NCBI GenBank assembly: GCA_963169745.1 | Contig: CAUJCU010000017.1 | Span: 124,001 to 188,000 of the forward strand | Length of the DNA stretch: 64,000 bases | Direction: 5' to 3' | Origin: Bacteroidota bacterium | GTDB lineage: Bacteria > Bacteroidota > Bacteroidia > UBA4408 | Part shown: positions 5,652 through 33,072 of the stretch, piece after piece | Layout: every line of letters begins with the position of its first letter | Position numbering within the stretch: position 1 is the first letter of the stretch | Translations under genes and position numbers: made by a program | Notes under the pieces: model-generated | Seen by the model: the letters and a program-made list of their open reading frames with translations, nothing else | Told to the model about the DNA's origin: nothing | The model's database searches: none

Positions 5652-6943
5652 GGCGACACAGTATTAAAATCGTATTTGCTTTTATTGCTGCTGTTTATAT
5701 TCTTGTAAGCATGAATATAAATTTTGGCAAAAACAAGTGGCAGGACGTGTTAGAAAGCGATGCCTGGGGCTATTATGCTTATTTGCCGGCAATATTTATT
5801 TACCATGATTTAAACTTTAATTTTAATGACAAGGTAATGCACGGTGGCCACTTCAATGAGCGATTGGCTTACGAATACCGAATTTTGCATAACAACCGCT
5901 TAGGAAATAAATATTTTTGTGGTACGGCATTGCTTATATCTCCCTTTTTTGTGGGGGCTCATTACCTTTCTAAATTAAATCATCATCCTTTAGATGGATA
6001 CAGCCGTAGTTATATATTAGCGGTAAATATGGCGGCTGTTTTTTATGCTTTAGCCGGGCTCTATTTCTTGTTTTTGCTTTTGAATTATTATACCTCAAAT
6101 TTAAGGGTTAAAATTATTTGTTTGTTAGCTATTGCTTTTGGCACACAAGTTTTTTATTACTCTTTTGCAGAGCCCGGAATGTCGCATGTATATTCTTTTT
6201 TTACTATTAATTTGTTTTTATGGGGTGTTAAATCTTTCTTTGATAGCTACCAAAAAAAATACTTATTTATTGCCTCACTCGCATTAGGAATTGTTTTTCT
6301 TATCCGACCGTTTAATCTTATTATTCTTTTAAGTATTCCTTTTTTAGCGGGTAGTTATATTAAGTTTATTGATGGCCTGCAACAAGTATGGGTAAATAAA
6401 AAGGTAAGCGCTATAGCTTTTTTGTTGTTTCTTTCAGTGGCTTTAATTCAGGCTATTATTTATTATTTGCAAATGAAGTTATGGTGGGTTGACTCCTACC
6501 CCGGTGAGCATTTTAATTTTTTGAAGCCTAATATGTTAAATGCTTTATTTAGCTTCAGAAAGGGATTGTTTATTTACACTCCTCTTATTTTATTGGCACA
6601 TGCAGGCTTATTCTTTATTTTTCGCAATAATAAATGGCTCTTTTTTACCTACTTATTTTTCTTTTTCGTATTAACCTATCTGCTTAGTTCTTGGTGGATG
6701 TGGTACTATGGAGGAGGATTTTCTTTACGTCCATTTATTGACTATTTTGGTTTATTTGCTGTTTTACTGGCGGTATTTTTAGATCAAACGAAATATCGAA
6801 ATTTTACCTTAGGGATTATTTTTATACTTGTAGTATGGTGTCAAATACAAACATACCAATACCGGTACTTTGTTATTCATTGGAGCGATATGAACAAAGA
6901 TATGTACTTTGATGCGGTACAAAAAATTCCGGATTTGTTTTAA
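5648..6943 (+). CDS. Polytopic membrane protein, probable GT-C-type glycosyltransferase
   Basis: This 431-residue integral membrane protein has around ten hydrophobic segments. Its N-terminal loop holds an acidic cluster (ESDAWGYYAYLPAIF, about residues 37-51), which resembles the first extracytoplasmic loop of GT-C-fold mannosyltransferase-like enzymes (PMT/ArnT/RgtA relatives) that use polyprenyl-linked sugars. The exact family was not recognised. The chosen GTG start at 5648 overlaps the stop of the pentapeptide gene (GTGA); an internal ATG at 5711 would cut into the first transmembrane helix. The downstream subtilase is convergent, with only 9 bases between the stops. Confidence 0.6.
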   Translation: MRRHSIKIVFAFIAAVYILVSMNINFGKNKWQDVLESDAWGYYAYLPAIFIYHDLNFNFNDKVMHGGHFNERLAYEYRILHNNRLGNKYFCGTALLISPFFVGAHYLSKLNHHPLDGYSRSYILAVNMAAVFYALAGLYFLFLLLNYYTSNLRVKIICLLAIAFGTQVFYYSFAEPGMSHVYSFFTINLFLWGVKSFFDSYQKKYLFIASLALGIVFLIRPFNLIILLSIPFLAGSYIKFIDGLQQVWVNKKVSAIAFLLFLSVALIQAIIYYLQMKLWWVDSYPGEHFNFLKPNMLNALFSFRKGLFIYTPLILLAHAGLFFIFRNNKWLFFTYLFFFFVLTYLLSSWWMWYYGGGFSLRPFIDYFGLFAVLLAVFLDQTKYRNFTLGIIFILVVWCQIQTYQYRYFVIHWSDMNKDMYFDAVQKIPDLF

Positions 6944-6952
6944 GTCTTGCTG

Positions 6953-8638
6953 CTACTCTTTTATAAATTTACGTACCAAGCTTTTAGTGTTTCCGGCTTG
7001 TAGCTGAATAAAGTAAAGTCCCGCTTGTAAGCCTTGCAAATCAACTATGTGAGCGTGGTAGCCGGCACTAAAATTACTACGCACACTATTTTTCACAAGT
7101 CTTCCTGACAGGTCTAAAATATTAATTTGTAAATTATCGGGTTGAGGCATTTTGTAAAAAAGCTGCAAATACTCTTGAGCCGGATTGGGTTGTAGTTCAA
7201 AATCTGAAAATAAATTATTAGCTATTTCGTTTTTCGTGTTAGAAGTTATTATACAATAATTATTTATTGCCTCAAGTGCTTTAAATAAGTTCAATCGGCC
7301 TCCTGTAACGCTTTGACCTTGCATTGAAGGAATTACATCAACCTGATCAAGCATAAATTGCTTAAAAAGAAGTGCAATTGAATCAGGATAATTTTTGTAG
7401 TCTTCTAATAAGTGAGGGCAGGCGGCAGAAATCATTAAGCCCACAGCTCCTGCCACATGAGGTGTCGCCATCGAGGTTCCGGTTAAATTACCATAAGCTT
7501 CATTTTGCATAGTGCTAAAAATTAATGTTCCGGGTGCTGCTAAATCAATAGTTGTAGCACCATATCCGGCATTAGAGTATTTAACATCATTACGGGTAGA
7601 ATTGGTAACTGATAACAGATGATTGCTGGGGCAACCTGTAGGAATATCACTGGTAACATCAATATTGTAGTTTGCATTTGCTGTTGCACCGGCACTTAAA
7701 ATACCTACAGCACCCAGTGAATCGTACATGGCACACCAAATTGGATAGTTTGCAGGTTGGCCATAGTCAACTCCAAAAGAGGAATTAGTGGCCACAACAA
7801 AGGCACCTTGCGCTCCGTTGGTTTGGTTATACAATTGTCTTTGTTTAAAAACATAAGAGTAAGCTTCAACAACTATAGATTCTACTCCACTAGAGCCTTT
7901 AATTCCCATAACTTTAGCATTCCAATTAATACCGGCCACTCCTATTCCATTGTTCCCTTTTGCGGCTACTGTTCCGGATACATGTGTTCCGTGCTGATCT
8001 ACAGGTATTGTGCCCGTGCCGTTTGAAGCATTCCATCCTTTCACATCATCAATGTACCCGTTTCCATCATCATCTATATTGTTGTTTGGAATTTCGCCAT
8101 AGTTAACCCAAAAGTTTAAATCGGGATGCGAAAAGTCAAATCCTCCATCTATTACTGCAACAACTACTGTATCACCAGCAGTAGTAATACCACCGGTGCA
8201 CAACTCCCAAGCCTCGGGAGCATCAATATCGGCATCAGCCACACCCCCATTTTGCCCGGTATTGTTCATATCCCATTGGCTTCCATTCAAGTAATAGTAA
8301 TCATTAGGTTCTAACACTCTTGGCAGCACATAGTGATTAAATTGTACTGCTTTAGTTTTAATATGAGCATTTACTACTCTCAATATTTCATTTTCTTGTA
8401 TTTTATTTTCATTGAAATGAAGTAACCATATACACAAAGGTTCAGATAAGAGTGAGCTTGATTTTAGCTCATAATTAGCATCAAACGACAATAAAAAGTC
8501 ATTTATATCAGTTCCTTTAGTAAGTTGAACAATCAGTTCACCGGGAACATGGTCATTAGAATTTTGAGCTTTTAACTGATTAAAAGTAGCTTGCCCGAAT
8601 AATAATACGGTTAAGAGTAAAGTATTTTTAAAATTCAT
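6953..8638 (-). CDS. Secreted subtilisin-like serine protease (S8) with T9SS sorting domain
   Basis: The 561-residue protein begins with a signal peptide ending near LKAQ and a propeptide-like segment (VPGELIVQLTKG). The S8 catalytic domain follows, with the triad in VVAVIDGGFD (Asp, about 164), HGTHVSGTVA (His, about 217) and GTSMATPHVAGA (Ser, about 388). Calcium-site-like DDDGNGYIDD lies between Asp and His. The last 85 or so residues form a Por-type C-terminal sorting domain (LQPNPAQEYL ... LQAGLYFIQL), which directs T9SS export and surface attachment. It probably degrades extracellular protein. The start codon at 8638 precedes the signal peptide directly. Confidence 0.93.
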   Translation of the reverse strand: MNFKNTLLLTVLLFGQATFNQLKAQNSNDHVPGELIVQLTKGTDINDFLLSFDANYELKSSSLLSEPLCIWLLHFNENKIQENEILRVVNAHIKTKAVQFNHYVLPRVLEPNDYYYLNGSQWDMNNTGQNGGVADADIDAPEAWELCTGGITTAGDTVVVAVIDGGFDFSHPDLNFWVNYGEIPNNNIDDDGNGYIDDVKGWNASNGTGTIPVDQHGTHVSGTVAAKGNNGIGVAGINWNAKVMGIKGSSGVESIVVEAYSYVFKQRQLYNQTNGAQGAFVVATNSSFGVDYGQPANYPIWCAMYDSLGAVGILSAGATANANYNIDVTSDIPTGCPSNHLLSVTNSTRNDVKYSNAGYGATTIDLAAPGTLIFSTMQNEAYGNLTGTSMATPHVAGAVGLMISAACPHLLEDYKNYPDSIALLFKQFMLDQVDVIPSMQGQSVTGGRLNLFKALEAINNYCIITSNTKNEIANNLFSDFELQPNPAQEYLQLFYKMPQPDNLQINILDLSGRLVKNSVRSNFSAGYHAHIVDLQGLQAGLYFIQLQAGNTKSLVRKFIKE

Positions 8639-8734
8639 GAATAATAAAAAGTATGTTTTCGTTAAATAAATTAAATTGAAAGTCCAAAAATCAAAAAAAA
8701 TAAGTAATTAACTAATAATAAAGTAGTATAATTT

Positions 8735-8742
8735 TATGTTTG
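8735..8742 (+). promoter_or_regulatory. Bacteroidota-type -7 element of the HlyD-permease-TolC operon
   Basis: TATGTTTG matches the TAnnTTTG consensus exactly. It lies 18 bases before the ATG at 8761. A longer reading frame from a TTG at 8740 would start inside this element, which argues for the ATG start and a short leader. No clear -33 TTTG box is seen. Confidence 0.55.
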
Positions 8743-8760
8743 TACAGAAAATTAACAAAT

Positions 8761-10014
8761 ATGCCTAAAAAGAAAATAATTATAATATCACTAATTACGC
8801 TCACTTTATTATTTGTGGTTCGTTATTTAATGCAAGGTGCCGATCACGACAAAGATATTTTTACCGAAGTAAAACAAGGAGATTTCGATATTAATGTTTT
8901 TACAACTGGCGAGTTAGAAGCCAAAAACTCAGTAGATATACAAGGCCCAACATCTGTGCGGCAGTTAGGTATCTGGCAAATAAAAATATCCGATTTGGTT
9001 CCCGAAGGTACTAATGTAAAAGAAGGGGAATATGTAGGGGCTTTGGATAAATCAGAAATATCAACCAAAATAAAAGAAGCCGAAAGCGAGTTAGACAAAA
9101 TACAAAGTCAATACACGCAAACAAAATTAGATACCACACTACAAATGCGGCAATCGCGTGATGAGCTTATAAATATGCAGTTTGACATGCAACAAAAAGA
9201 AATAACACTCGAACAATCAGCATACGAACCTCCGGCTACCATTAGACAAGCGCAACTTGATTTAGAAAAAAGCAAACGCACATTTGAACAGGCTAAAAAA
9301 AACAATATTTTAAAAGAAAAACAATTGGCTGCCAAAATGCAGGAAGTTTCGGCTTCCTTGCAACAAACACAAAATAAGCTAGACTTACTTCAAAATACCT
9401 TACAGCAATTTACGGTAGTGGCTCCCAAAGATGGAATGGTTATTTATCAGCGCGAGTGGAGTGGTAAAAAAAAGGGAGTGGGCAGTACGGTAAGCCCTTG
9501 GGAATCTACTGTAGCCACCCTGCCTGATTTAAGTGTTATGATTAGCAGAACCTATGTAAACGAAGTAGATATACGAAAAATTAAAATGAACCAAAAAGTA
9601 GCAATTACTCTTGATGCCTATCCTGAAAAGAAACTTAGCGGTATTGTAACTGCTGTTGCTAATGTTGGAGAGCAAAACCCAAAATCTGATGCCAAGGTTT
9701 TTGAAGTAACCATTCAAATCAATGAAAAAGACACTACACTTCGTCCGAGTATGACTACCGGAAATAATATAGCTGTTGATAAAATTAAAAATGTATTATT
9801 TATACCTTTAGAAGCCATACACAACGATGGTGATAGCCTAACATACGTATATGCCCAGGATGGCAGAAAACTCTTAAAAAAAGAAATAATAGTAGGTGCC
9901 ACGAACGAAAATAATGCTATTGTTAAGGCTGGCTTAAATAAAGGAGAAATGATTTTTCTATCGATACCTGAAAACAAAGATGAGCTGAATATAATAAAAA
10001 TGCAAAGCAGGTAA
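8761..10014 (+). CDS. HlyD-family periplasmic adaptor of an export system
   Basis: The 417-residue protein is the periplasmic bridge between an inner-membrane transporter and a TolC-type outer-membrane channel. It has an N-terminal membrane anchor (IIIISLITLTLLFVV), a lipoyl-like barrel-sandwich half (SVRQLGIWQIKISDLVPEGT), a long coiled-coil hairpin (about residues 100-220, rich in Q, K, E), the second lipoyl half near DGMVIYQREW, and beta-barrel and membrane-proximal domains. The ATG was preferred over an upstream TTG because of the promoter at 8735. Its stop overlaps the permease start by one base (TAATG). Substrate is unknown. Confidence 0.87.
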   Translation: MPKKKIIIISLITLTLLFVVRYLMQGADHDKDIFTEVKQGDFDINVFTTGELEAKNSVDIQGPTSVRQLGIWQIKISDLVPEGTNVKEGEYVGALDKSEISTKIKEAESELDKIQSQYTQTKLDTTLQMRQSRDELINMQFDMQQKEITLEQSAYEPPATIRQAQLDLEKSKRTFEQAKKNNILKEKQLAAKMQEVSASLQQTQNKLDLLQNTLQQFTVVAPKDGMVIYQREWSGKKKGVGSTVSPWESTVATLPDLSVMISRTYVNEVDIRKIKMNQKVAITLDAYPEKKLSGIVTAVANVGEQNPKSDAKVFEVTIQINEKDTTLRPSMTTGNNIAVDKIKNVLFIPLEAIHNDGDSLTYVYAQDGRKLLKKEIIVGATNENNAIVKAGLNKGEMIFLSIPENKDELNIIKMQSR

Positions 10015-23204: not shown

Positions 23205-25796
23205 TTATTTTGTGTTCACCATTTTCTTGGTGTCAACACTGTTGCCGTCCGCTACGAGTGAATAGGAGTATGTACCGGCACTTAAATTAGAAGAATACAC
23301 TTCTAACTGACCAACACCTCTTGTTTCGATCAATACGGTTTTAATCACTGACCCCTGCTGGTCAAAGAAAATAATTTCGGCCTGTTTGACTTCGGTTGGG
23401 ATAGTATATCTTATAGTGGTTTTTTCTTTGAAAGGATTAGGTTCGTTTTGGTTCAATACAATCCTGTTTACACTTGAAAGATCAACTTTGAGGCTGTTAA
23501 ATTCAGAATTATTTTCATTTTGATTTATTTGCCCGCTTCTGTTGCCATCAGGGTTAACTCTACAGCATTCGTCCAAACGTTGCATCATTTCATCAATTTT
23601 TTGTGCTTGCTGCTCTAATGCTTGAGTCAATTCTTGATTTTTATTTTCTAATTCTTGATTTTTTGCGTCCAATTCTTTTATTGCATTAATAGAAGTGTAT
23701 AAAACTGCATTTGTATTAACTCTGTAAATTGGTACTATAGCTTCTGTGGTATCAGACGGGTTATTTAACCTGTAATTATAAGTATCTACTGCATCAGGAA
23801 TCTGCTGCATCACTTCTTGTGCCATCACACCAACGTAAACCTTTGAAGTATCTGTAATTCCAACTTTTCCGTTATAAGTATATGACTTTACATTAACATT
23901 TCTAATCGCATCTAAACCTAGACTATAGTCGTTAACATTACTTTTAATTCTTGTATCTGAAGGAACATTGTAGGCTTGAGCCAATACTTCACCATTTACC
24001 GCTAAAGTAGTATTAGGACCTAATGGTGCAAACTGGTTTACTCCAATATTACCCAATCTGCCTACGTCAAAAACCGGAACTATATTATTAATACCGGTAT
24101 TGTTGCAGAAATTAGCTCCACCGGCAGTTGGAGGACCAATTATTCTCAAGTACGATGCATTTTGATATAACAAGCCGGTTTGAATATACATGGCACATGC
24201 ATTAGTGGGGTCATCATCTCTGATATTTCCTGGTCTGATACGAAAAAATGTCGGGTTAGGGTTTCTGGCCTGCCATATATCGTTTGTGTAGATACGCCCC
24301 CAGTGATGAGTGTAATCTCCTAAATAGGCTCCGGTAAAAGTACATGCTATAGGTACTCCTCCGGTAGTCATTGTTGTTGTATTTGGAAAAATAGTGTCGC
24401 CACCAATTGCAAGCCTGTCCGCTGCCTGATTCGCAGGTTCAATACCTGCAATATTTGCACCTGCAATTGATGATGTTAATCTCACTCCAACATTATTGCT
24501 TGCCACTGCTTCCACAAGCCCTAATCCTGTATGCCCTACCGATTGAATAACAGCATTCTCATAGCCCAGTGTACCGTTTGTGAACATTCTAAAAGCTTGT
24601 TCCTGCGCTCCGGCTACCGATCTGTCTCTGGCGGTTCCAAAGAAAAAATTTCTTGTGCCGGCACCACTGCTTACATCAACATGTAAACGCGCATCCACTG
24701 TATTTTGTGCATTGGCATTGCTTCTTCCAATACCTGTATTTCCTTCTATTAATGCGCCATCAGCAGGTGCATTTACAGTGTTCCCGGCATAATTACTGCC
24801 TATTTTGGCATTACCTGCTACATTCAGTTTTGCTCTGATATTGTTATTTGCACCGGTACCAATGCCAATATTATTTATGTATGTGCCACTTGGCACTTCG
24901 TAAACACCGCTTGCACAAAGGTTATTTGTTGCGGCATCTTTTTTCATTAAAAAATCATTAGGAACACTTGTACAATAGTTTACACCGCCACCGCCTGTGC
25001 CCTGCTTATCATCTACCAGTATTACATCTCCGTTGGAATTTACGCTGAGTATCTTGTCCGTAGTATTGGTAATGCTGCTGCTGGCATTGGTGAGGTCGGT
25101 AAAACGCAGGCCGCTGTTGCCGCTGGTGCCATGGGTGATTTCTAATTTGTTATTTGGTGAGGTTGTATTTATACCCACATTGCCATTCCCCAAAATGCGC
25201 ATGCGTTCGGCAGCATTGGTGTTAAACAGCATGGGTAAATTTTCCTGCTGGTTAAATACCGCATGGCCATTGCTGCCCCCGCCCAATATCCCAATTTGAA
25301 AACCATCGCTTGAGGTTGTGCCTGTGCCGCTATTGGTATATTGCATTCTTACCGCATTGGTGCTTCCATCACTGATATGAAGTTTCTGTTGTGCAGTATG
25401 TGTTCCTATCATTAGTTGAATATTATCAAAAGTTGTTACGCTTGGGTCTCCGCCAAATGAGATTGCTGAATTTGTAGATGTTATATCATCTGATGTTGTT
25501 AAATAACTTGACCCCAAAACAAGCGAGTGATTTCCAACCCTGATTACTCTGGCATGGATACTGTCAACATCTAAAACACTATCTATTGCAGCCGAATACA
25601 TGAAATTTACCCTTCCATTGGGTTTGACCTTAAAAGAAGAAATATTATTCGCCTTAAACATCAAGTTTTGAGCATTAGTGGTTCCTACAAAATCTGTATC
25701 ATTTACCGAGTTCCCCCTTAACGACCAATTGGATTGGGCATTAGATTTTGTAATACAAAAAAGCATTACAAATAAAAATAAAAGTTTTTGTCTCAT
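23205..25796 (-). CDS. Secreted protein with S74 tail-fibre chaperone domain and T9SS sorting domain (set 2, gene C)
   Basis: The 863-residue protein has a signal peptide (LLFLFVMLFCITKSNAQ), a long low-complexity beta region with repeated VGIN/IGTG-type turns typical of trimeric fibres, and a peptidase S74 intramolecular chaperone domain with the self-cleavage dyad in SDTRIK (Ser and Lys five apart, about residues 613-618) and YVGVMAQEVMQQIPDA. A coiled coil (ELDAKNQELENKNQELTQAL) and a Por-type sorting domain (LNQNEPNPFKEKTTI) follow. S74 domains in phage fibres trim themselves after trimer assembly; combination with a T9SS signal suggests a surface fibre. The start was moved to the Met before the signal peptide. 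Confidence 0.82.
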   Translation of the reverse strand: MRQKLLFLFVMLFCITKSNAQSNWSLRGNSVNDTDFVGTTNAQNLMFKANNISSFKVKPNGRVNFMYSAAIDSVLDVDSIHARVIRVGNHSLVLGSSYLTTSDDITSTNSAISFGGDPSVTTFDNIQLMIGTHTAQQKLHISDGSTNAVRMQYTNSGTGTTSSDGFQIGILGGGSNGHAVFNQQENLPMLFNTNAAERMRILGNGNVGINTTSPNNKLEITHGTSGNSGLRFTDLTNASSSITNTTDKILSVNSNGDVILVDDKQGTGGGGVNYCTSVPNDFLMKKDAATNNLCASGVYEVPSGTYINNIGIGTGANNNIRAKLNVAGNAKIGSNYAGNTVNAPADGALIEGNTGIGRSNANAQNTVDARLHVDVSSGAGTRNFFFGTARDRSVAGAQEQAFRMFTNGTLGYENAVIQSVGHTGLGLVEAVASNNVGVRLTSSIAGANIAGIEPANQAADRLAIGGDTIFPNTTTMTTGGVPIACTFTGAYLGDYTHHWGRIYTNDIWQARNPNPTFFRIRPGNIRDDDPTNACAMYIQTGLLYQNASYLRIIGPPTAGGANFCNNTGINNIVPVFDVGRLGNIGVNQFAPLGPNTTLAVNGEVLAQAYNVPSDTRIKSNVNDYSLGLDAIRNVNVKSYTYNGKVGITDTSKVYVGVMAQEVMQQIPDAVDTYNYRLNNPSDTTEAIVPIYRVNTNAVLYTSINAIKELDAKNQELENKNQELTQALEQQAQKIDEMMQRLDECCRVNPDGNRSGQINQNENNSEFNSLKVDLSSVNRIVLNQNEPNPFKEKTTIRYTIPTEVKQAEIIFFDQQGSVIKTVLIETRGVGQLEVYSSNLSAGTYSYSLVADGNSVDTKKMVNTK

Positions 25797-25797
25797 G

Positions 25798-27057
25798 TTA
25801 ATTTGATTTAGGATTAATAATAAATTTGAATGGGTGATAATTAGATTGGTTAAGTGATAATATATACATACCCGCATTAAAACTATTGCAATCAATAGAG
25901 GTTTTTGAACTTAGTTGTCCCTGTTTGATTGTTTTGCCTGTAATATCTATTATCCTGTAATCAACAGGTTCATTTAAATTGAAAATGCTTAAAACATTGT
26001 CTTTTAAAATAATATCAGGATTGTTTTTTGTCTCAAAATAATTTGTTGTTGCTGTTAAGGTATCCACATGAATATAGTCCACCATAGTCAATGTATCAGC
26101 ACAGCCGCCATGTTTGTATCCAATAAATGTTACATCATAATTTCCGGTGACAAGGTAACAGATATTGGCAGGATTTAATTGATTTGAAATAGCGGGAAAA
26201 CCATTTTCAAATATCCATTGGCAGGAATCATAAGCTATATCCGTCTGAATATGAAAGCTGATACAGGAACCCTCTGTTACAACTGTTGAATCTGCCACAA
26301 TTTGCATTACCTGCTCTTTCACATGCTCGCAATAAAGGCTGTCGGCAGATACACAAACATCATCAATATAGTAGTAAGACAGGCAGGTTGGATATGCTGA
26401 ACTCAACATCAAACTGTCAACATTACCCATCTCAAAAAAATTGCCTATTAGGAAGGTGTTGTATGCAGAATCAGCAATAAAACTACCTCTTATGGTTTGC
26501 CAACCTATTGAGTCTGTGATGACATTGCTTGCATATACGGCAGAGAGATTATTAATGAATGGTGGAGGAAGGCTATTAATAAAGGTATATCCATTTCCAT
26601 CTGTTAAGTCCTGAGTAAAAAATTTCATTCCAAGTTTATTAGTGGCACAATAAGAGTTATATTCAGAACTTGAAACTTTTAATGAAACGAAATATTTAGT
26701 ACCAATGCTTAATGGCTGACTCAGTAGTCCACCAATATATTCTCTGTTGTTTAATGATGTTTGATTCGGTTGTAAGAAACTTGCATAACTTGCAAGTCCT
26801 GCAATAGAATTGCCAGTGCTTGCACACTGAAATCCAGCAAAGTTCAATGGAACCCCTCTATTATTTGCTGTATCGTCAGCATGAAAGAAATCGGCAGTGT
26901 TATAATTCAAATCCCATCCATCAAAAAGCCATGGATAAACCCATCCCTGAGGACAACAAGTTGAAGACTCAAAACTTGGATTAGGCACTAAATTAACCTG
27001 TGCTTTTGCACTAAAAACAGCAAAAAATAAACATAAAATAAGCAGGTAATTTTTCAT
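25798..27057 (-). CDS. Secreted protein with PKD-like domain and T9SS sorting domain (set 2, gene B)
   Basis: The 419-residue protein starts with signal peptide MKNYLLILCLFFAVFSAKAQ, then VNLVPNPSFE, the opening of a carbohydrate-binding/jelly-roll-like region (about 20-230) with repeated ITDSIGWQTIRGSFIADSAY. A PKD-like domain (CYLVTGNYDVTFIGYKHGG, about 315-345) and a Por C-terminal domain follow. Its first 20 or so codons and upstream DNA are nearly identical to gene B of set 1 (29167-30162), while the C-terminal halves differ in domain content. The spacing to gene A (13 bases) is the same in both sets. Binding function is inferred only. Confidence 0.75.
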   Translation of the reverse strand: MKNYLLILCLFFAVFSAKAQVNLVPNPSFESSTCCPQGWVYPWLFDGWDLNYNTADFFHADDTANNRGVPLNFAGFQCASTGNSIAGLASYASFLQPNQTSLNNREYIGGLLSQPLSIGTKYFVSLKVSSSEYNSYCATNKLGMKFFTQDLTDGNGYTFINSLPPPFINNLSAVYASNVITDSIGWQTIRGSFIADSAYNTFLIGNFFEMGNVDSLMLSSAYPTCLSYYYIDDVCVSADSLYCEHVKEQVMQIVADSTVVTEGSCISFHIQTDIAYDSCQWIFENGFPAISNQLNPANICYLVTGNYDVTFIGYKHGGCADTLTMVDYIHVDTLTATTNYFETKNNPDIILKDNVLSIFNLNEPVDYRIIDITGKTIKQGQLSSKTSIDCNSFNAGMYILSLNQSNYHPFKFIINPKSN

Positions 27058-27070
27058 GTTAATTTGTTTT

Positions 27071-28522
27071 TTAATGGTTAATGATAATTTTTTTAGAAAT
27101 TGATTTATTGTTTGACCATATTTGAAGAAAATAAATACCATTAGGAATCTGGCTTGTATTTATAGATTGAATCAGCTGGTTCCCTTTAAAATCCAACACC
27201 AACTGGCCTTTATAATCATAAAGTAAGTAGCTGTTATTCTCCGTAAATTTATGGTTGATGGTTATAAATTCGTTTGCCGGGTTAGGGTAAACATTAATCA
27301 AATTATCAGTTTGACATAAATTATTATCAGCAGTGACTATATTATTAAAGTAATAATTAGAATAAATGGGCATGCTAAAATTACATGGTCTTTGAAGAGC
27401 CAATGCGTTATACTCAAAATTGCAACCTGCCCCTAATATATTTGGTTGGTGAATGATGTGAATACTATCTGTAAAACCACCGGTTTTTGAAACATAAATT
27501 TTACCATCTGGGCCTAATTGCATGTGTCCTAAACCCTGCAATACAGGAGGACCAAAATAGGTTTGCCAAGTATAAATCGAATTTGATATTGCTGTAGAAT
27601 CGTAAACAGAAAGGTCTATTTGCTGAATACAATTATTGCCTATTCCTGTTACCAAACAAGCGTATAAAAATCTACTATCCGGTGAAAATTCATATCCATA
27701 TGTAAAATAGTTGCTTCCTATAGCAATACTATCATTTTGGGGTCTGATTTTATTTGACAATTGCCCTGTTGAGTTATTGAACAAATAAAATTCTCCTACA
27801 CCCCTGTTAAAAATTTGCCCATTTGGAGAAAATCTTCCACTACCCCCCATATTTTCATCATCAAAAGGAGAGATAACCATATTAGCGGTATCAGGTCCTG
27901 CACTTGTTATTGGAATCATTAATAATTTCGAAGTATTTTGTGGTGGTGAAAAATATTTTGAATAAGCTAACCAGTAATCTGTTCCATTAGCATGTTTTGT
28001 AATAGCCATTCCTTGGGTGGCATTCGGCATAACTAATATGTTTTTTTGCCCCACCACCACAGCACCTTTACCGTTATCCAAAGTCATATCCACCACTGAA
28101 TAACGCAAGCCGTTAACGCATTGGTCGGCCACACATCCATTTACAAATACAAAGTATTGTGTGCTGCTGCCCGGTCGTGGAATTATTTGTGATGATACCA
28201 TGGTGTTTTTATCGCATAATAAACCCGCACCATTCAACATAGGTTGGTGCAAAGCATTCCACAATGTATCTCCATTACAGTAAAACAATAAGTTACCATC
28301 GGTGTCGCTCATACAGGAGTTGCCTTCATAAGTTATTCCATGGCTTCCTGTGAACACACTGGCCTGGTAGTTATTGTTTTTATCAAAGTTTAAACCTGCT
28401 GCATGCCCAAAGCGCCAGTTAACAGTTCGGTTTAATTCAAAACCCTGTGCTTTGCAGTTAACATCTAAAAGGATTAAGCTAAATAATAAGCAGGTGATGA
28501 GGCAAAAAGTATTTTTTTTCAT
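27071..28522 (-). CDS. Secreted WD40-like/beta-propeller-type T9SS protein (set 2, gene A)
   Basis: The 483-residue protein has a signal peptide, then NRTVNWRFGHAAGLNFD and GNSCMSDTDGNLLFYCNGDTLWNA, the pattern of a Bacteroidota family of secreted proteins with propeller-like repeats (FSPDSRFLYACL, MQLGPDGKIYVSKTGG). It ends in a Por sorting domain (INVYPNPANEFITINH). It is about 75-80% identical by eye to gene A of set 1 (30176-31618). The start was set at MKKNTF (28522); another Met seven codons earlier is possible. The function of the family is unknown. Confidence 0.75.
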   Translation of the reverse strand: MKKNTFCLITCLLFSLILLDVNCKAQGFELNRTVNWRFGHAAGLNFDKNNNYQASVFTGSHGITYEGNSCMSDTDGNLLFYCNGDTLWNALHQPMLNGAGLLCDKNTMVSSQIIPRPGSSTQYFVFVNGCVADQCVNGLRYSVVDMTLDNGKGAVVVGQKNILVMPNATQGMAITKHANGTDYWLAYSKYFSPPQNTSKLLMIPITSAGPDTANMVISPFDDENMGGSGRFSPNGQIFNRGVGEFYLFNNSTGQLSNKIRPQNDSIAIGSNYFTYGYEFSPDSRFLYACLVTGIGNNCIQQIDLSVYDSTAISNSIYTWQTYFGPPVLQGLGHMQLGPDGKIYVSKTGGFTDSIHIIHQPNILGAGCNFEYNALALQRPCNFSMPIYSNYYFNNIVTADNNLCQTDNLINVYPNPANEFITINHKFTENNSYLLYDYKGQLVLDFKGNQLIQSINTSQIPNGIYFLQIWSNNKSISKKIIINH

Positions 28523-28588
28523 TTTTTCAACTTTATAAAGCAAATTTATGATATTTTAAAAAGCAAACTGAAAAAAGTAACAATTAAC

Positions 28589-29161
28589 TTACATTGCTTT
28601 TAAAATACGCATACGTTCAGTGGCATTGGTATTAAATAACATAGGTAAATTTTCCTGCTGGTTAAATACCGCATGGCCATTGCTGCCCCCGCCTAATATA
28701 CCAATTTGAAAACCATCGCTTGAGGTTGTGCCTGTGCCGCTATTGGTATATTGCATTCTTACAGCATTGGTGCTTCCATCGCTGATATGTAATTTTTGTT
28801 GCCCAACCTGCGTGCCAATGGTAACTTGAATATCATCAAAAGTTGTAACCGATGTTTCTCCTCCAAATGATATTAGGGAATTTGTTGACGTAATATCATC
28901 TGTTCCACTGCCTGGAAACCCACCTAGCCACAAAGAACTTGGCCCTACATGAATTCGACCCAAAACTCTCAGGCTATCAGTAGTTATCTGCCCTTTTACA
29001 TGCAAAGGAACAGTAGGATTATTTAAACCTATCCCCACTTTTCTGAAAGTGTAATTTGTACTGTCTCCCGTTGAATGCCACTGAAGTGTATCTTCCTGTG
29101 CAAATCCATTTACAGCGAATTGAAAAATAGCCAAAAGCAAAATAACTGTTCTTGTTTTCAT
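28589..29161 (-). CDS. Truncated paralogue of the S74 fibre protein (set 1, gene C)
   Basis: The 190-residue product has a signal peptide (VILLLAIFQFAVNGFAQ). A stretch from SLISFGGETSVTTFDDIQ to NATERMRIL is nearly identical to residues of the full-length C protein at 23205-25796. It then ends abruptly (RMRILKAM) where the long version continues RMRILGNGNVGIN. The fibre body, S74 chaperone, coiled coil and T9SS signal are all absent, so it cannot assemble like its paralogue and is probably a broken copy. The break lies just upstream of set 2 gene A, as expected if unequal recombination joined two sets here. Confidence 0.7.
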   Translation of the reverse strand: MKTRTVILLLAIFQFAVNGFAQEDTLQWHSTGDSTNYTFRKVGIGLNNPTVPLHVKGQITTDSLRVLGRIHVGPSSLWLGGFPGSGTDDITSTNSLISFGGETSVTTFDDIQVTIGTQVGQQKLHISDGSTNAVRMQYTNSGTGTTSSDGFQIGILGGGSNGHAVFNQQENLPMLFNTNATERMRILKAM

Positions 29162-29166
29162 TTGAA

Positions 29167-30162
29167 TTAGTTTTTAGTTAAGATTAGTTTTTGATTGAAT
29201 TTGTAGAAACTATTTTGAATTTCTATATAAAACATACCATTAAAATTGTCTGGTATAGTAATTTCATATTGTTTGTTATTTACCTCAATGAATCTTTCAT
29301 ATATTATAGTTCCATATAAAGAATATATCCTGAGTACATAATTTCCGAAAGGGACATTTTCAATGTTTGTTTTTCCACCGGCCGGATTGGGGAAGATTTT
29401 AGCTGTATTTTCATTGATTATTTCCAATTTTTTCGTAACTAAATTACAGGTATTGCTATCAGTAGAGATACAAATATTATCTACAAAATAATAAGACCAA
29501 CGGTTGTTGATATTACTTGAATCTAAGCACATAAAATTAGAATTTGCATTATCATAAAATCTTCCTATTAAAAAATGAGTGTATGCTGAATCTGCAATAA
29601 AAGAGCCTGATATTTTAGTCCAACTTAGTGTATCTGTTATTACATCATCTAAATTTATTTGTGAGAAATTATTTACAAAAGGTAAATTATTTGAAATTAA
29701 AGGGCTTGGAAAAGAATAGGTAAAAAATTTCATCCCTATGTTGTTGGTGCCACACATAATATTTGGACTTGGAGGATTGCCATCTGCCAATGAAACATAA
29801 AAAGTAACGAAATATGTTTGACCAACTACTAAAGCAGAACTTAATGATCTACCAAAGAATTCTTTTGCAGAAGGATTTAATTGGCCAAAACTGTAAAAAC
29901 CAAAATATCCATTTCCATGATGAGGATATTGTGAACCCCAAGCATTGGTTGGGGTGGACACAGGTAGCTGATTTACCCCACAAGAATTAAAATAATCTGC
30001 TGAATTTACGTTCATTGTCCAACCTGTGGCGTATCTGGTAAGGCCACTAAATTCAGGGCAAGTATCAAATTGTTCAAAACTTGGATTAGGCACTAAATTA
30101 ACCTGTGCTTTTGCACTAAAAACAGCAAAAAATAAACATAAAATAAGCAGGTAATTTTTCAT
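29167..30162 (-). CDS. Secreted jelly-roll-like protein with T9SS sorting domain (set 1, gene B)
   Basis: The 331-residue protein shares the signal peptide and VNLVPNPSFE opening with gene B of set 2 but lacks the PKD-like domain. Its middle region has ITDTLSWTKISGSFIADSAY, parallel to the set 2 paralogue, and it ends with a Por domain (KIFPNPAGGKTNIENV). The start at 30162 was chosen because the signal peptide begins there; the frame runs open further upstream into the end of gene A. It lies 13 bases after gene A and 5 bases before the truncated gene C. Confidence 0.74.
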   Translation of the reverse strand: MKNYLLILCLFFAVFSAKAQVNLVPNPSFEQFDTCPEFSGLTRYATGWTMNVNSADYFNSCGVNQLPVSTPTNAWGSQYPHHGNGYFGFYSFGQLNPSAKEFFGRSLSSALVVGQTYFVTFYVSLADGNPPSPNIMCGTNNIGMKFFTYSFPSPLISNNLPFVNNFSQINLDDVITDTLSWTKISGSFIADSAYTHFLIGRFYDNANSNFMCLDSSNINNRWSYYFVDNICISTDSNTCNLVTKKLEIINENTAKIFPNPAGGKTNIENVPFGNYVLRIYSLYGTIIYERFIEVNNKQYEITIPDNFNGMFYIEIQNSFYKFNQKLILTKN

Positions 30163-30175
30163 GTTAATTTGTTTT

Positions 30176-31618
30176 TTAATGGTTAATGATAATTTTTTTA
30201 GAAATTGATTTGCTGTTTGAACATATTTGAAGAAAATAAATACCATTAGGAACCTGGCTGGTATTGATAGTTTGAATGAGCTGGTTTCCCTTAAAACCTA
30301 ACACCAACTGCCCTCTAAAATCATAAAGCATATAATTACGGTTATCTGTATATTTATGATTAACAGTCAGGTATTCATCGGCAGGGTTAGGATAAATATT
30401 AATTACGCTTTCTGTTGCCGTCATATTAGTTTGAGCGGTTATTATGTTGTTAAAATAATAATCGGGATAAATGGGCATGCTGAAATTACAAGGTCGTTGA
30501 AGCGCTAAAGCATTAAATTCAAAATTGCAACCCGCACCTAAAATATTGGGTTGATGGATAATATGAATGGTATCTGTAAAGCCACCTGTTTTGGCAATGT
30601 AAATTTTACCATCTGGAGCTAACTGCATGTGTCCCATACCCATTAAAACAGGAGGTCCTGTATATATTTGAAACGAAAAAATAGAGTTACTAATTGCAAT
30701 AGAATCGAATACCGCTAAGTCAAATTGCTGAATACAATCTAAACCAATAGTAGAAACCAAATTCGTGTATAAAAAACGATTATTAGGTGAAAACTCAAAT
30801 CCATATATAAAGTAGTTACTACCAGGTCCAATACTATCATTTTGGGGTCTGATTTTATTTGATAGCTGCCCAGTAAAATTATTAAATAAATAAAATTCTC
30901 CCCCTCCCCTTGTAAAGATTTGACCATTTGGTGAAAATCGACCAGAGGCATTCCCTTCAGCGATTGTTTCAATAATATTAGTTGTGTCTGGACCGATATT
31001 CGATATTGGAATCATTACAACTTTTGTTTGATTTTGTGGAGAAGGAAAATATTTTGTATATGCTAACCAGTAATCTATACCATTACCATGTTTGGTAATA
31101 GCCATGCCCTGGTAAGCGTTAGGTATAACCAACATGTTTTTCTGCCCGGGCACTACTGCGCCTTTTCCGTTATCTAATGCCATATCCACAACAGAATAGC
31201 GCAAGCCGTTAATGCATTGGTCGGCCACACAGCCATTCACAAACACAAAATACTGCGTAATGCTGCCAGGGCGTGGAATTATTTGTGAAGATACCTTAGT
31301 ATTTTTATCGCAAAGCAAGCCAGCACCATTTAACATAGGTTGGTGCAAAGCATTCCATAAGGTATCACCGTTGCAGTAAAGCAATAAATTACCATCGGTG
31401 TCGCTCATACAGGAGTTCCCTTCATAAGTTATTCCATGGCTTCCTGTAAACACACTTGCCTGGTAATTATTGTTTTTATCAAAATTCAACCCTGCCGCAT
31501 GTCCAAAACGCCAGTTTACAGTTCTGTTTAATTCAAAACCCTGTGAAAAGCTCTCTAAGTTATGCAAACACAAATTAATAATAATTATTAAAATTGTGAT
31601 AATTGTATTTATTTTCAT
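30176..31618 (-). CDS. Secreted WD40-like/beta-propeller-type T9SS protein (set 1, gene A)
   Basis: The 480-residue protein has an N-terminal hydrophobic signal (ITILIIIINLCLHNLESFSQ) and the same body as gene A of set 2: NRTVNWRFGHAAGLNFD, propeller-like units and a Por sorting domain (INIYPNPADEYLTVNH). Signal peptides of the two A copies are unrelated although the mature proteins are close, a mosaic pattern. It is the first gene of the minus-strand run. The IS element at 31661-33051 begins only 43 bases upstream, so its original promoter has probably been displaced. Confidence 0.75.
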   Translation of the reverse strand: MKINTIITILIIIINLCLHNLESFSQGFELNRTVNWRFGHAAGLNFDKNNNYQASVFTGSHGITYEGNSCMSDTDGNLLLYCNGDTLWNALHQPMLNGAGLLCDKNTKVSSQIIPRPGSITQYFVFVNGCVADQCINGLRYSVVDMALDNGKGAVVPGQKNMLVIPNAYQGMAITKHGNGIDYWLAYTKYFPSPQNQTKVVMIPISNIGPDTTNIIETIAEGNASGRFSPNGQIFTRGGGEFYLFNNFTGQLSNKIRPQNDSIGPGSNYFIYGFEFSPNNRFLYTNLVSTIGLDCIQQFDLAVFDSIAISNSIFSFQIYTGPPVLMGMGHMQLAPDGKIYIAKTGGFTDTIHIIHQPNILGAGCNFEFNALALQRPCNFSMPIYPDYYFNNIITAQTNMTATESVINIYPNPADEYLTVNHKYTDNRNYMLYDFRGQLVLGFKGNQLIQTINTSQVPNGIYFLQICSNSKSISKKIIINH

Positions 31619-31660
31619 TTTAGCAACATTTTTGGCTTAATTTTACATTTTTTTACACAT

Positions 31661-31674
31661 AGTGTCCGATAAAA
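31661..31674 (+). repeat. IS left terminal inverted repeat
   Basis: AGTGTCCGATAAAA, matched exactly by the complement of 33038-33051. It is the end next to the transposase stop codon and lies 43 bases upstream of the start of secreted gene A of set 1. Confidence 0.85.
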
Positions 31675-31755
31675 ATACAAATTAATCCATTTTCTTTTTG
31701 AAAGCTTTGAAATTACTGATTTAGATTTCTCGATTTCAAATGTAAGCCCCTTTTT

Positions 31756-32964
31756 TTATGAGCTGTTAAATTTCAGCTGAAGTTGAGCGTCATATTCTTT
31801 GAGCCAATCTTTCTCTGGGTTTTCAAGAAATCTTATCAGGTGAATGTAGTTAAATAGATGTAATCTACAAAAGCTTGCAAGGTTAGAGAATGCCCATTTA
31901 CGTTTAACTTTCTTGTGTATTACTGTCAGTAAGAGATTTACAATCAGTGTACACCAAATTTGTATTTTGATGGCGTTTTCATTATCTCCAAGGAAAAATC
32001 TCAGAGGAAAGTTTTGTTTGAGCTGTTTGAACAGTAGTTCTATTTGCCAGCGTTTCTTGTAAATCAGTGCGATATGCCCGGCATTCATTCCGTTTAAATT
32101 TGTAATAAATTCAAAACAGCGCTTGTTTTCATCGTCCCTGTAGGCAATTTTTCGCAATTCCATGGTTTTTATATAAGTCCCATTTTCTTTGACTTCCACA
32201 CGAATAATCTCATCTTTTATCACTCCATCATCGATATAAGAAGCGATGTCGTTTTCCTTTACAGATTCATAAGAGGCATTTGATTTTAAGCGTGTAACAA
32301 AGAAAATCTCATTCTCTGTAAATTTATCAAAGGTTTTGTAATCATTGTAACCCTTATCAAACACAACAATTTTACCCTTTTCTAGTTGAATATGCTTCAA
32401 AAATTGCTTATCGTGCGTTGTGGCAGCAGAGAACCAAATAAGTTTAGGAACTCTTTCTTGAAGGTTGATTTGTGTGTGGACTTTTATGCCACCTTTTCTC
32501 TATCCTGTATTAGGCTCCCTTCCAACACAACTCAAAATGTCTTTAAACAAGGATATGGTACTGGAGTCAATGACTTCTAATCTGTTTTCCCAAGCATACG
32601 ACTGTCGGCTGTCCGAGATAATCGGATGGAATTCTTTGAGCAATGAGTATTAGATATCCTGAAATACCAAATGACTTCTGCGCTTGTTGGCATCGCTCAA
32701 TGTACTTTTATATGGGATGGATTTTAATTGAAAGTGATTCATTTTTCCTTTCAAACCAAGCATAGAGGCTGCAACTTCGCGCAATGAGGTGCAATGTGCA
32801 AATGTTGAAAATAACATACTTATCAAGTGATCTGAGGTGTCAAATTTCTTGACATAGTGATCTGATAAGTGTTTTTTACCGATGGTTCTGATTTTATTCA
32901 AATCAATTAAAGAAATCATCTGTCCGAAAACAGATTGTCCGAAAAAATAGTTACTTTTAGCCAT
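31756..32964 (-). pseudogene. IS4-family transposase with two in-frame stop codons
   Basis: Read in one unbroken frame, 402 codons give a DUF4372-type N-terminus (MAKSNYFFGQSVFGQMISLI) and a DDE transposase core: VIDSSTISLFKD (first Asp), VVFDKGYNDY (second Asp) and YKKRWQIELLFKQLKQ (Glu). A TAA at 32650-32652 (codon 105) and a TAG at 32500-32502 (codon 155) interrupt it, with no frameshift, so the gene is inactivated by point mutations only. Residues around the stops (DI*YSLLKEF and NTG*RKGGIKV) align with the intact family. Inactivation looks recent, and the intact ends could still be moved by a related transposase. Confidence 0.88.
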
Positions 32965-32994
32965 GTGATTTTGTACGCAAAACCAAATTACATT

Positions 32995-33028
32995 AAAGCG
33001 GGAAATCTTTCAAAGGAAATCCCGCTTT
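32995..33028. other. Hairpin at the 5' end of the IS transposase
   Basis: AAAGCGGGA (32995-33003) pairs with TCCCGCTTT (33020-33028) around a 16-base loop. It sits between the right inverted repeat and the transposase start. Hairpins here in IS elements often block translation of transposase mRNA made by read-through from outside; that role is inferred. Confidence 0.55.
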
Positions 33029-33037
33029 TCTAAAAAG

Positions 33038-33051
33038 TTTTATCGGACACT
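33038..33051 (-). repeat. IS right terminal inverted repeat
   Basis: The plus strand reads TTTTATCGGACACT, the reverse complement of the left end. The outer end falls 22 bases before the -7 element used by bshA, where a -33 box would be expected. Confidence 0.85.
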
Positions 33052-33072
33052 ACTTATAACGTTTCATAATTA

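Follow-up and report, generated by a model that had tools for sequence, protein, structure and literature searches.

The locus described here raises the question of how two neighbouring sets of genes can be identical over one short stretch and hardly alignable over the next. It lies within a window of 64,000 nucleotides (the whole stretch of DNA analysed, from contig CAUJCU010000017.1) in the genome of a member of the Bacteroidota assembled into 24 contigs totalling 3.0 Mb. A sequence-only reading of the window had proposed a tandem duplication of a set of secreted T9SS genes, A, B and C, with mosaic divergence between the sets, and had attributed the mosaic to recombination between conserved blocks. 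In many Bacteroidota a large share of the surface consists of T9SS proteins, and to our knowledge variation of that surface has been little described outside Porphyromonas gingivalis.

Gene content of the two sets

Six open reading frames on the minus strand make up the locus, in the order A2-B2-C2 / A1-B1-C1:

30176..31618, minus strand: A2, 480 aa; predicted to be secreted, beta-propeller-like (fold class via the A1 model), T9SS type A sorting domain
29167..30162, minus strand: B2, 331 aa; predicted to be secreted, jelly roll (CBM-like), T9SS sorting domain
28589..29161, minus strand: C2, 190 aa; truncated C, which stops at the end of the block common to C1
27071..28522, minus strand: A1, 483 aa; like A2, to which it has 77% aa identity
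25798..27057, minus strand: B1, 419 aa; like B2 plus an insert of ~90 aa, weakly PKD-like
23205..25796, minus strand: C1, 863 aa; full-length, with S74 chaperone domain, coiled coil and a sub-threshold T9SS sorting domain

These frames confirm the common gene order and the A-B gap of 13 nt in both sets; the B-C gap is 5 nt in set 2 vs. 1 nt in set 1. The sets are indeed adjacent, but the duplication is not a full one: C2 (190 vs. 863 aa) is without the S74, coiled-coil and sorting domains of C1, and set 2 is thus an incomplete copy. Each upstream B gene, like the truncated C, has a start codon and an open frame. The 12-mer AAATTAACATGA has three copies in the window (0.09 expected), at the starts of B1, B2 and C1.

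The description of these genes as T9SS genes holds for A and B, since a T9SS sorting domain was found above the Pfam cut-off on A1, A2, B1 and B2, in each case of type A and accompanied by a leader (read by eye; helical in the models). It is less secure for C, as C1 falls just under the threshold (22.3 vs. 23 bits for NCBIfam, 23.4 vs. 27 bits for Pfam) and C2 has no such domain. From their sequences A and B are T9SS-type cargo, predicted to be secreted. The S74 domain of C1 scored 45.1 bits against a Pfam cut-off of 22 and is lacking in C2. The PKD-like insert is present in B1, but its identity as PKD is weak, the match to the Pfam family (E=0.027) being below the cut-off. No curated Pfam family matched the B body. 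The model of A1 (pLDDT 81) is a beta-propeller for which the best fold match was an archaeal YVTN propeller (1l0q), and that of B (pLDDT 84.5) is a jelly roll resembling CBM4/CBM16 (3k4z, 2zex) followed by the sorting domain; given the low whole-chain TM-scores and 11-13% identity, both are resemblances at the level of fold class only.

Conserved blocks and divergent payloads

The two copies are direct repeats, and within them two conserved blocks, here termed arms, enclose a divergent payload:

26969..27147, minus strand: 5' arm of unit 1; A1 end, 13-nt gap and B1 leader
30074..30252, minus strand: 5' arm of unit 2; A2 end, 13-nt gap and B2 leader; pairs with 26969-27147 at an offset of 3105
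25234..25370, minus strand: 3' arm of unit 1; core of the block within C1
28644..28780, minus strand: 3' arm of unit 2; core of the block within C2; pairs with 25234-25370 at an offset of 3410
25371..26968, minus strand: payload 1; B1 body and variable C1 N-terminus, divergent from payload 2
28781..30073, minus strand: payload 2; B2 body and variable C2 N-terminus, divergent from payload 1

The patchy identity described earlier was borne out. An exact run of 138 bp spans the A-B junction (26969-27106 = 30074-30211) and reaches 27147 with 3 mismatches, and the C block, which is 86% identical at the nucleotide level, contains a 137-bp core in which 3 positions differ (25234-25370 = 28644-28780). 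Low identity was likewise found where it had been reported, in the B bodies (about 38% aa) and the first 20 codons of A (45%), whilst the A bodies are about 80% identical in nucleotides and the C N-termini are hardly alignable. The divergence is therefore not uniform across the sets.

Related sets in congeners

Among eight genomes sampled from its order, the window genome alone has close A genes. The congener G001 has B3-C3 (locus L121), Bh with a truncated Ch (L122) and Bi-Ci, which runs off the end of its contig (L123); with these B-C sets, some of which have a truncated C, A was not found, and neither congener G002 nor G003 gave an A match at E<=1e-40. Set number hence varies among relatives, with two sets here, B-C sets in G001 and no A in G002 and G003, and the same two sets are not a feature of every relative. 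B2 and the N-terminus of C2 are nearer to the G001 sets than to B1 and C1, the nearest relative of B2 being Bh (66% aa identity). The truncation points differ, lying on C1 numbering near codon 202 in C2, 227 in C3 and 300 in Ch.

A further set, with A3 and B3, was found at locus L075 (G346:C19) in a genome from another family. The GC content of this contig changes from ~50% to 35% at a tRNA-Ser (L075 5284), and the 4,534 bp that follow match G001 at 99.98% identity. Because of this switch and this identity the L075 set was treated as belonging to the window's genus; the contig may represent a very recent island at tRNA-Ser, or may be chimeric. The A3 gene is missing in the G001 assembly, in which a contig terminates beside the A3 position. 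Between A3 and B3, a C1-type N-terminus is fused to a B1-type tail, an arrangement which, judged by its sequence, is a deletion scar. DNA resembling the A3 upstream region was also found upstream of Bh and Bi, and the leader of Bi is A-like and different from the other B leaders, which indicates gene loss and leader exchange.

Two further features of the G001 loci were observed. A 353-bp repeat, 97% identical, is located beside the truncated C of L122 (7999-8351) and upstream of B in L123 (7507-7855); were the two contig ends to join, a B-C tandem would have a copy of it on either side. An AAA-like ATPase gene between short repeats (L121 1806-3666) adjoins the truncated C3, and a 172-bp piece related to this region is found upstream of Bh in L122; the ATPase region is possibly a mobile element that helped to truncate C3.

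Age of the sets and tests for recombination

Between A1 and A2, dS ranges from 0.86 to saturation across four parts of A, and falls to 0.07 over the final 27 codons and to 0.00 across the B leader. With the A bodies at such values the sets must be old, and on this synonymous divergence they are judged to be far older than a recent duplication, the short common stretches having been copied between them recently. A simple tandem duplication is therefore too simple an account, given the age of the sets and the greater similarity of B2 to a G001 gene than to B1. The longest run of identical synonymous codons between the sets was 52 (p<=1e-4 against shuffles).

In a three-way comparison of set 1, set 2 and the L075 set, the closest pair changed along the genes. 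Sets 1 and 2 were closest over A codons 41-140, the A end and B leader, and C 161-200, set 2 and the L075 set over A codons 1-20 and C 21-110, and set 1 and the L075 set over A codons 281-400. Excursion tests on the informative sites gave p-values down to 5e-5, the limit set by the shuffles; with synonymous sites only, the test was significant in A for one of three choices of recombinant (p=1.5e-4) and in C for two of three (p=0.013 and 0.016).

Tracts of identical synonymous codons (p-values without correction for multiple pairs) were significant in all five within-genome pairs from the window and G001 vs. one of eight cross-genome pairs. Over A and the B leader, the run of 52 in the window (p=1e-4) compares with 14 and 10 in the cross-genome pairs (p=0.08 and 0.31). 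In C, the run was significant for C1-C2 in the window (p=0.0014) and for C3-Ci (p=0.0002), Ch-Ci (p=0.0006) and C3-Ch (p=0.0068) in G001, and for C2-Ci alone (p=0.010) among the six cross-genome pairs; the C block has been homogenised separately in the two genomes. Because the tracts follow the genome in this way, their likely source is within-genome homologous recombination and not just selection. The near-saturated A bodies beside identical blocks, the switches of nearest relative and the within-genome tracts together support the earlier proposal of recombination between conserved blocks.

Proposed mechanism and alternative explanations

The locus thus has two arms with a divergent payload between them, the arms have been homogenised recently within the genome, and the truncated C precedes the full one, an order that recurs elsewhere (see below). 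The reading we favour, at a probability of roughly 0.52, is that of a two-unit T9SS-type array, the units of which exchange sequence by homologous recombination via the two arms. The 5' arm would be formed by the A end and B leader and the 3' arm by the block inside C, with the payload between them comprising the B body together with some 110 codons at the start of C. As the C of the upstream unit is truncated at the 3' arm, its payload could pass into the complete unit by copying or crossing over; recombination via both arms would then place the other B body and C head ahead of the complete C, and recombination via one arm would lead to the loss or gain of units. In the window, the full-length S74 C is found in the last unit only. 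Ordinary homologous recombination would be enough for this; besides the IS transposase described below, no recombinase was found in the locus. Direct observation covers homogenisation of the arms and not exchange of payload into the full C. We infer a donor role for the truncated unit, a surface location for the proteins and a benefit of exchange in varying secreted proteins.

The most serious competitor is a tandem birth-and-death process, in which a duplication ending inside C left a dead C remnant upstream and a full C at the end, and was followed by divergence and by incidental gene conversion where similarity still sufficed, with no diversifying function. The truncated-then-full order arises automatically from any duplication with its right end inside C, the truncation points vary among C2, C3 and Ch, and a broken C paralogue is present elsewhere in the genome, all of which suit such a history. 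However, it does not by itself explain saturated payloads between near-identical arms, and it leaves unexplained why arrays so laid out, in which leader and C block are homogenised, occur in several families; we regard it as a live possibility that falls short of even odds.

Import from a related species, either of a whole set or of its B-C part, with the mosaic marking where foreign DNA entered, is unlikely. It would account for the similarity of B2 and the C2 N-terminus to the G001 sets, an IS element abuts A2, and the L075 set sits in low-GC sequence that begins at a tRNA-Ser, on a contig from a different family, but import alone would not make the two sets of one genome identical in two separate tracts, and the L075 contig, 99.98% identical to G001 over 4.5 kb, may be chimeric. 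Short stretches could also be kept identical if purifying selection acted on them as a leader, as a coupling signal, or as an element in DNA or RNA, and the B leader and NLVPNPSFE motif are fairly conserved across genomes too. At those synonymous sites, nevertheless, cross-genome pairs differ, and the leader of Bi in G001 is a wholly different one, which makes selection a very improbable source of the identity.

The IS element lies directly upstream of A2:

31653..33059, minus strand: interrupted IS4-like element; DUF4372 and DDE transposase, two ORFs

Its inverted ends are TGTCCGATAAAA, and it is probably a neighbour that stands outside the mechanism. Several other candidates were considered and rejected. 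Site-specific inversion of the shufflon or tail-fibre invertase type was discarded as there were no suitable inverted repeats, the IS ends being the only clear pair. Phage or plasmid cargo was set aside since A was unmatched in the phage collection and viral contigs, and plasmids gave only partial matches (25-37%). No reservoir of additional sets was found in the rest of the genome, either by DNA or by A protein, and a scan of genome contigs gave one distant sorting-domain match only. The genome does have a second C paralogue (L082, G000:C13:1-16000, 6653-9178), with ~50-63% aa identity to C1 and broken into three frames. Nor did the B body and C head behave as a matched pair, as their correlation in a Mantel test (0.56 vs. 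0.54 for the C arm) was unspecific and their linkage not above general relatedness.

Arrays in other Bacteroidia

Relatives of A were found in 68 of 395 sampled Bacteroidia genomes (E<=1e-40) and relatives of B in 214 of the 395 (E<=1e-15). The loci analysed were chosen from the best B hits, so the frequencies of arrangements among them are unrepresentative. In L076, L085 and L086 the gene next after A is C, and many loci have a full C after B. A truncated-then-full order with common C blocks was found in L128 (three truncated C units, then one full), L146 (one, then one full), L130 (four, then one B with a full-length S74 C), L133 and L170, the last C of the latter two being split between frames with the S74-type end present. 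As L128, L130 and L170 come from one genus, the cases cover five families, that of the window included. The exception is L129, in which the order is B-C-B-C and both C genes are full; in L126 three truncated units run to the contig end, where the end of the array is unseen. In four further candidates (L175, L179, L190 and L194) the common C block was not found and they were left out of the count. The S74 domain is carried by C1 and by the full C of L076, L128, L129, L130 and L133, with coiled-coil-like matches after it in C1 and L129.

In L130, the C N-termini have mostly 40-65% nucleotide identity, with two similar pairs, whilst three of the four truncated C genes have the block common to the full C, mostly at 93-100%, the fourth being without it. 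Homogenisation also extends to upstream regions and, in some units, to the B leaders (L126, L130). The wider claim, that Bacteroidia widely exchange cassettes of the carbohydrate-binding-like B and the variable C head, by homologous recombination via two arms, into one complete secreted fibre gene, is advanced tentatively, as something possible but short of probable.

The B family (alignment A6) is large, has the NLVPNPSFE motif and is often found in tandem. In L127 (5060-8091), three tandem B genes have sorting domains which are 88-100% identical in places and bodies which differ; there the homogenised part is the 3' end of B and not the leader.

Comparison with known systems

In P. gingivalis, the adhesin domains of the gingipains and HagA, as well as other surface proteins, show domain rearrangement and allelic exchange, for which gene conversion was proposed by the authors (PMC5266723). 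The present locus is similar in that it involves mosaic variation of T9SS-type, putative surface proteins in the same phylum, but in P. gingivalis the domains belong to single large proteins, with alleles between strains (PMC5266723), whereas here separate A and B genes and the C N-terminus are arranged in tandem units, with truncated C genes ahead of a full one. A parallel in layout is vlsE of Borrelia, in which contiguous partial copies lie beside one complete gene and the variable part lies between conserved stretches (PMC11499132). In that same account the vls cassettes are silent and their conversion has been observed (PMC11499132); the upstream B genes here are complete, each with its start codon and leader, and any switching of them is hypothetical. 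The layout of a silent-cassette system, with partial copies adjoining one complete gene, was found in the window, L128, L130, L133, L146 and L170, and within-genome recombination tracts between copies, also expected of such a system, were found as well.

The S74 domain (Peptidase_S74, chaperone of endosialidase) occurs in phage tail fibres. Unlike these, the C genes lie on the chromosome, encode a signal peptide and a T9SS-like C-terminus, and are paired with A or B. Rearrangement of T9SS surface proteins and silent-cassette arrays are both already known; the part that appears to be new is the B-C array with its truncated-then-full order, no published description of B-C arrays ending in one S74 gene having been found in the open-access literature. 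The recurring arrays suggest an apparently undescribed way to vary secreted proteins. If this is true, surface diversification would be recognisable in a sequence from a series of truncated 5' units before a single complete fibre gene; the bacteria may gain from such diversification against phages or predators, or in the choice of substrate. Attention is also drawn to a widespread B family whose body is without a curated Pfam match.
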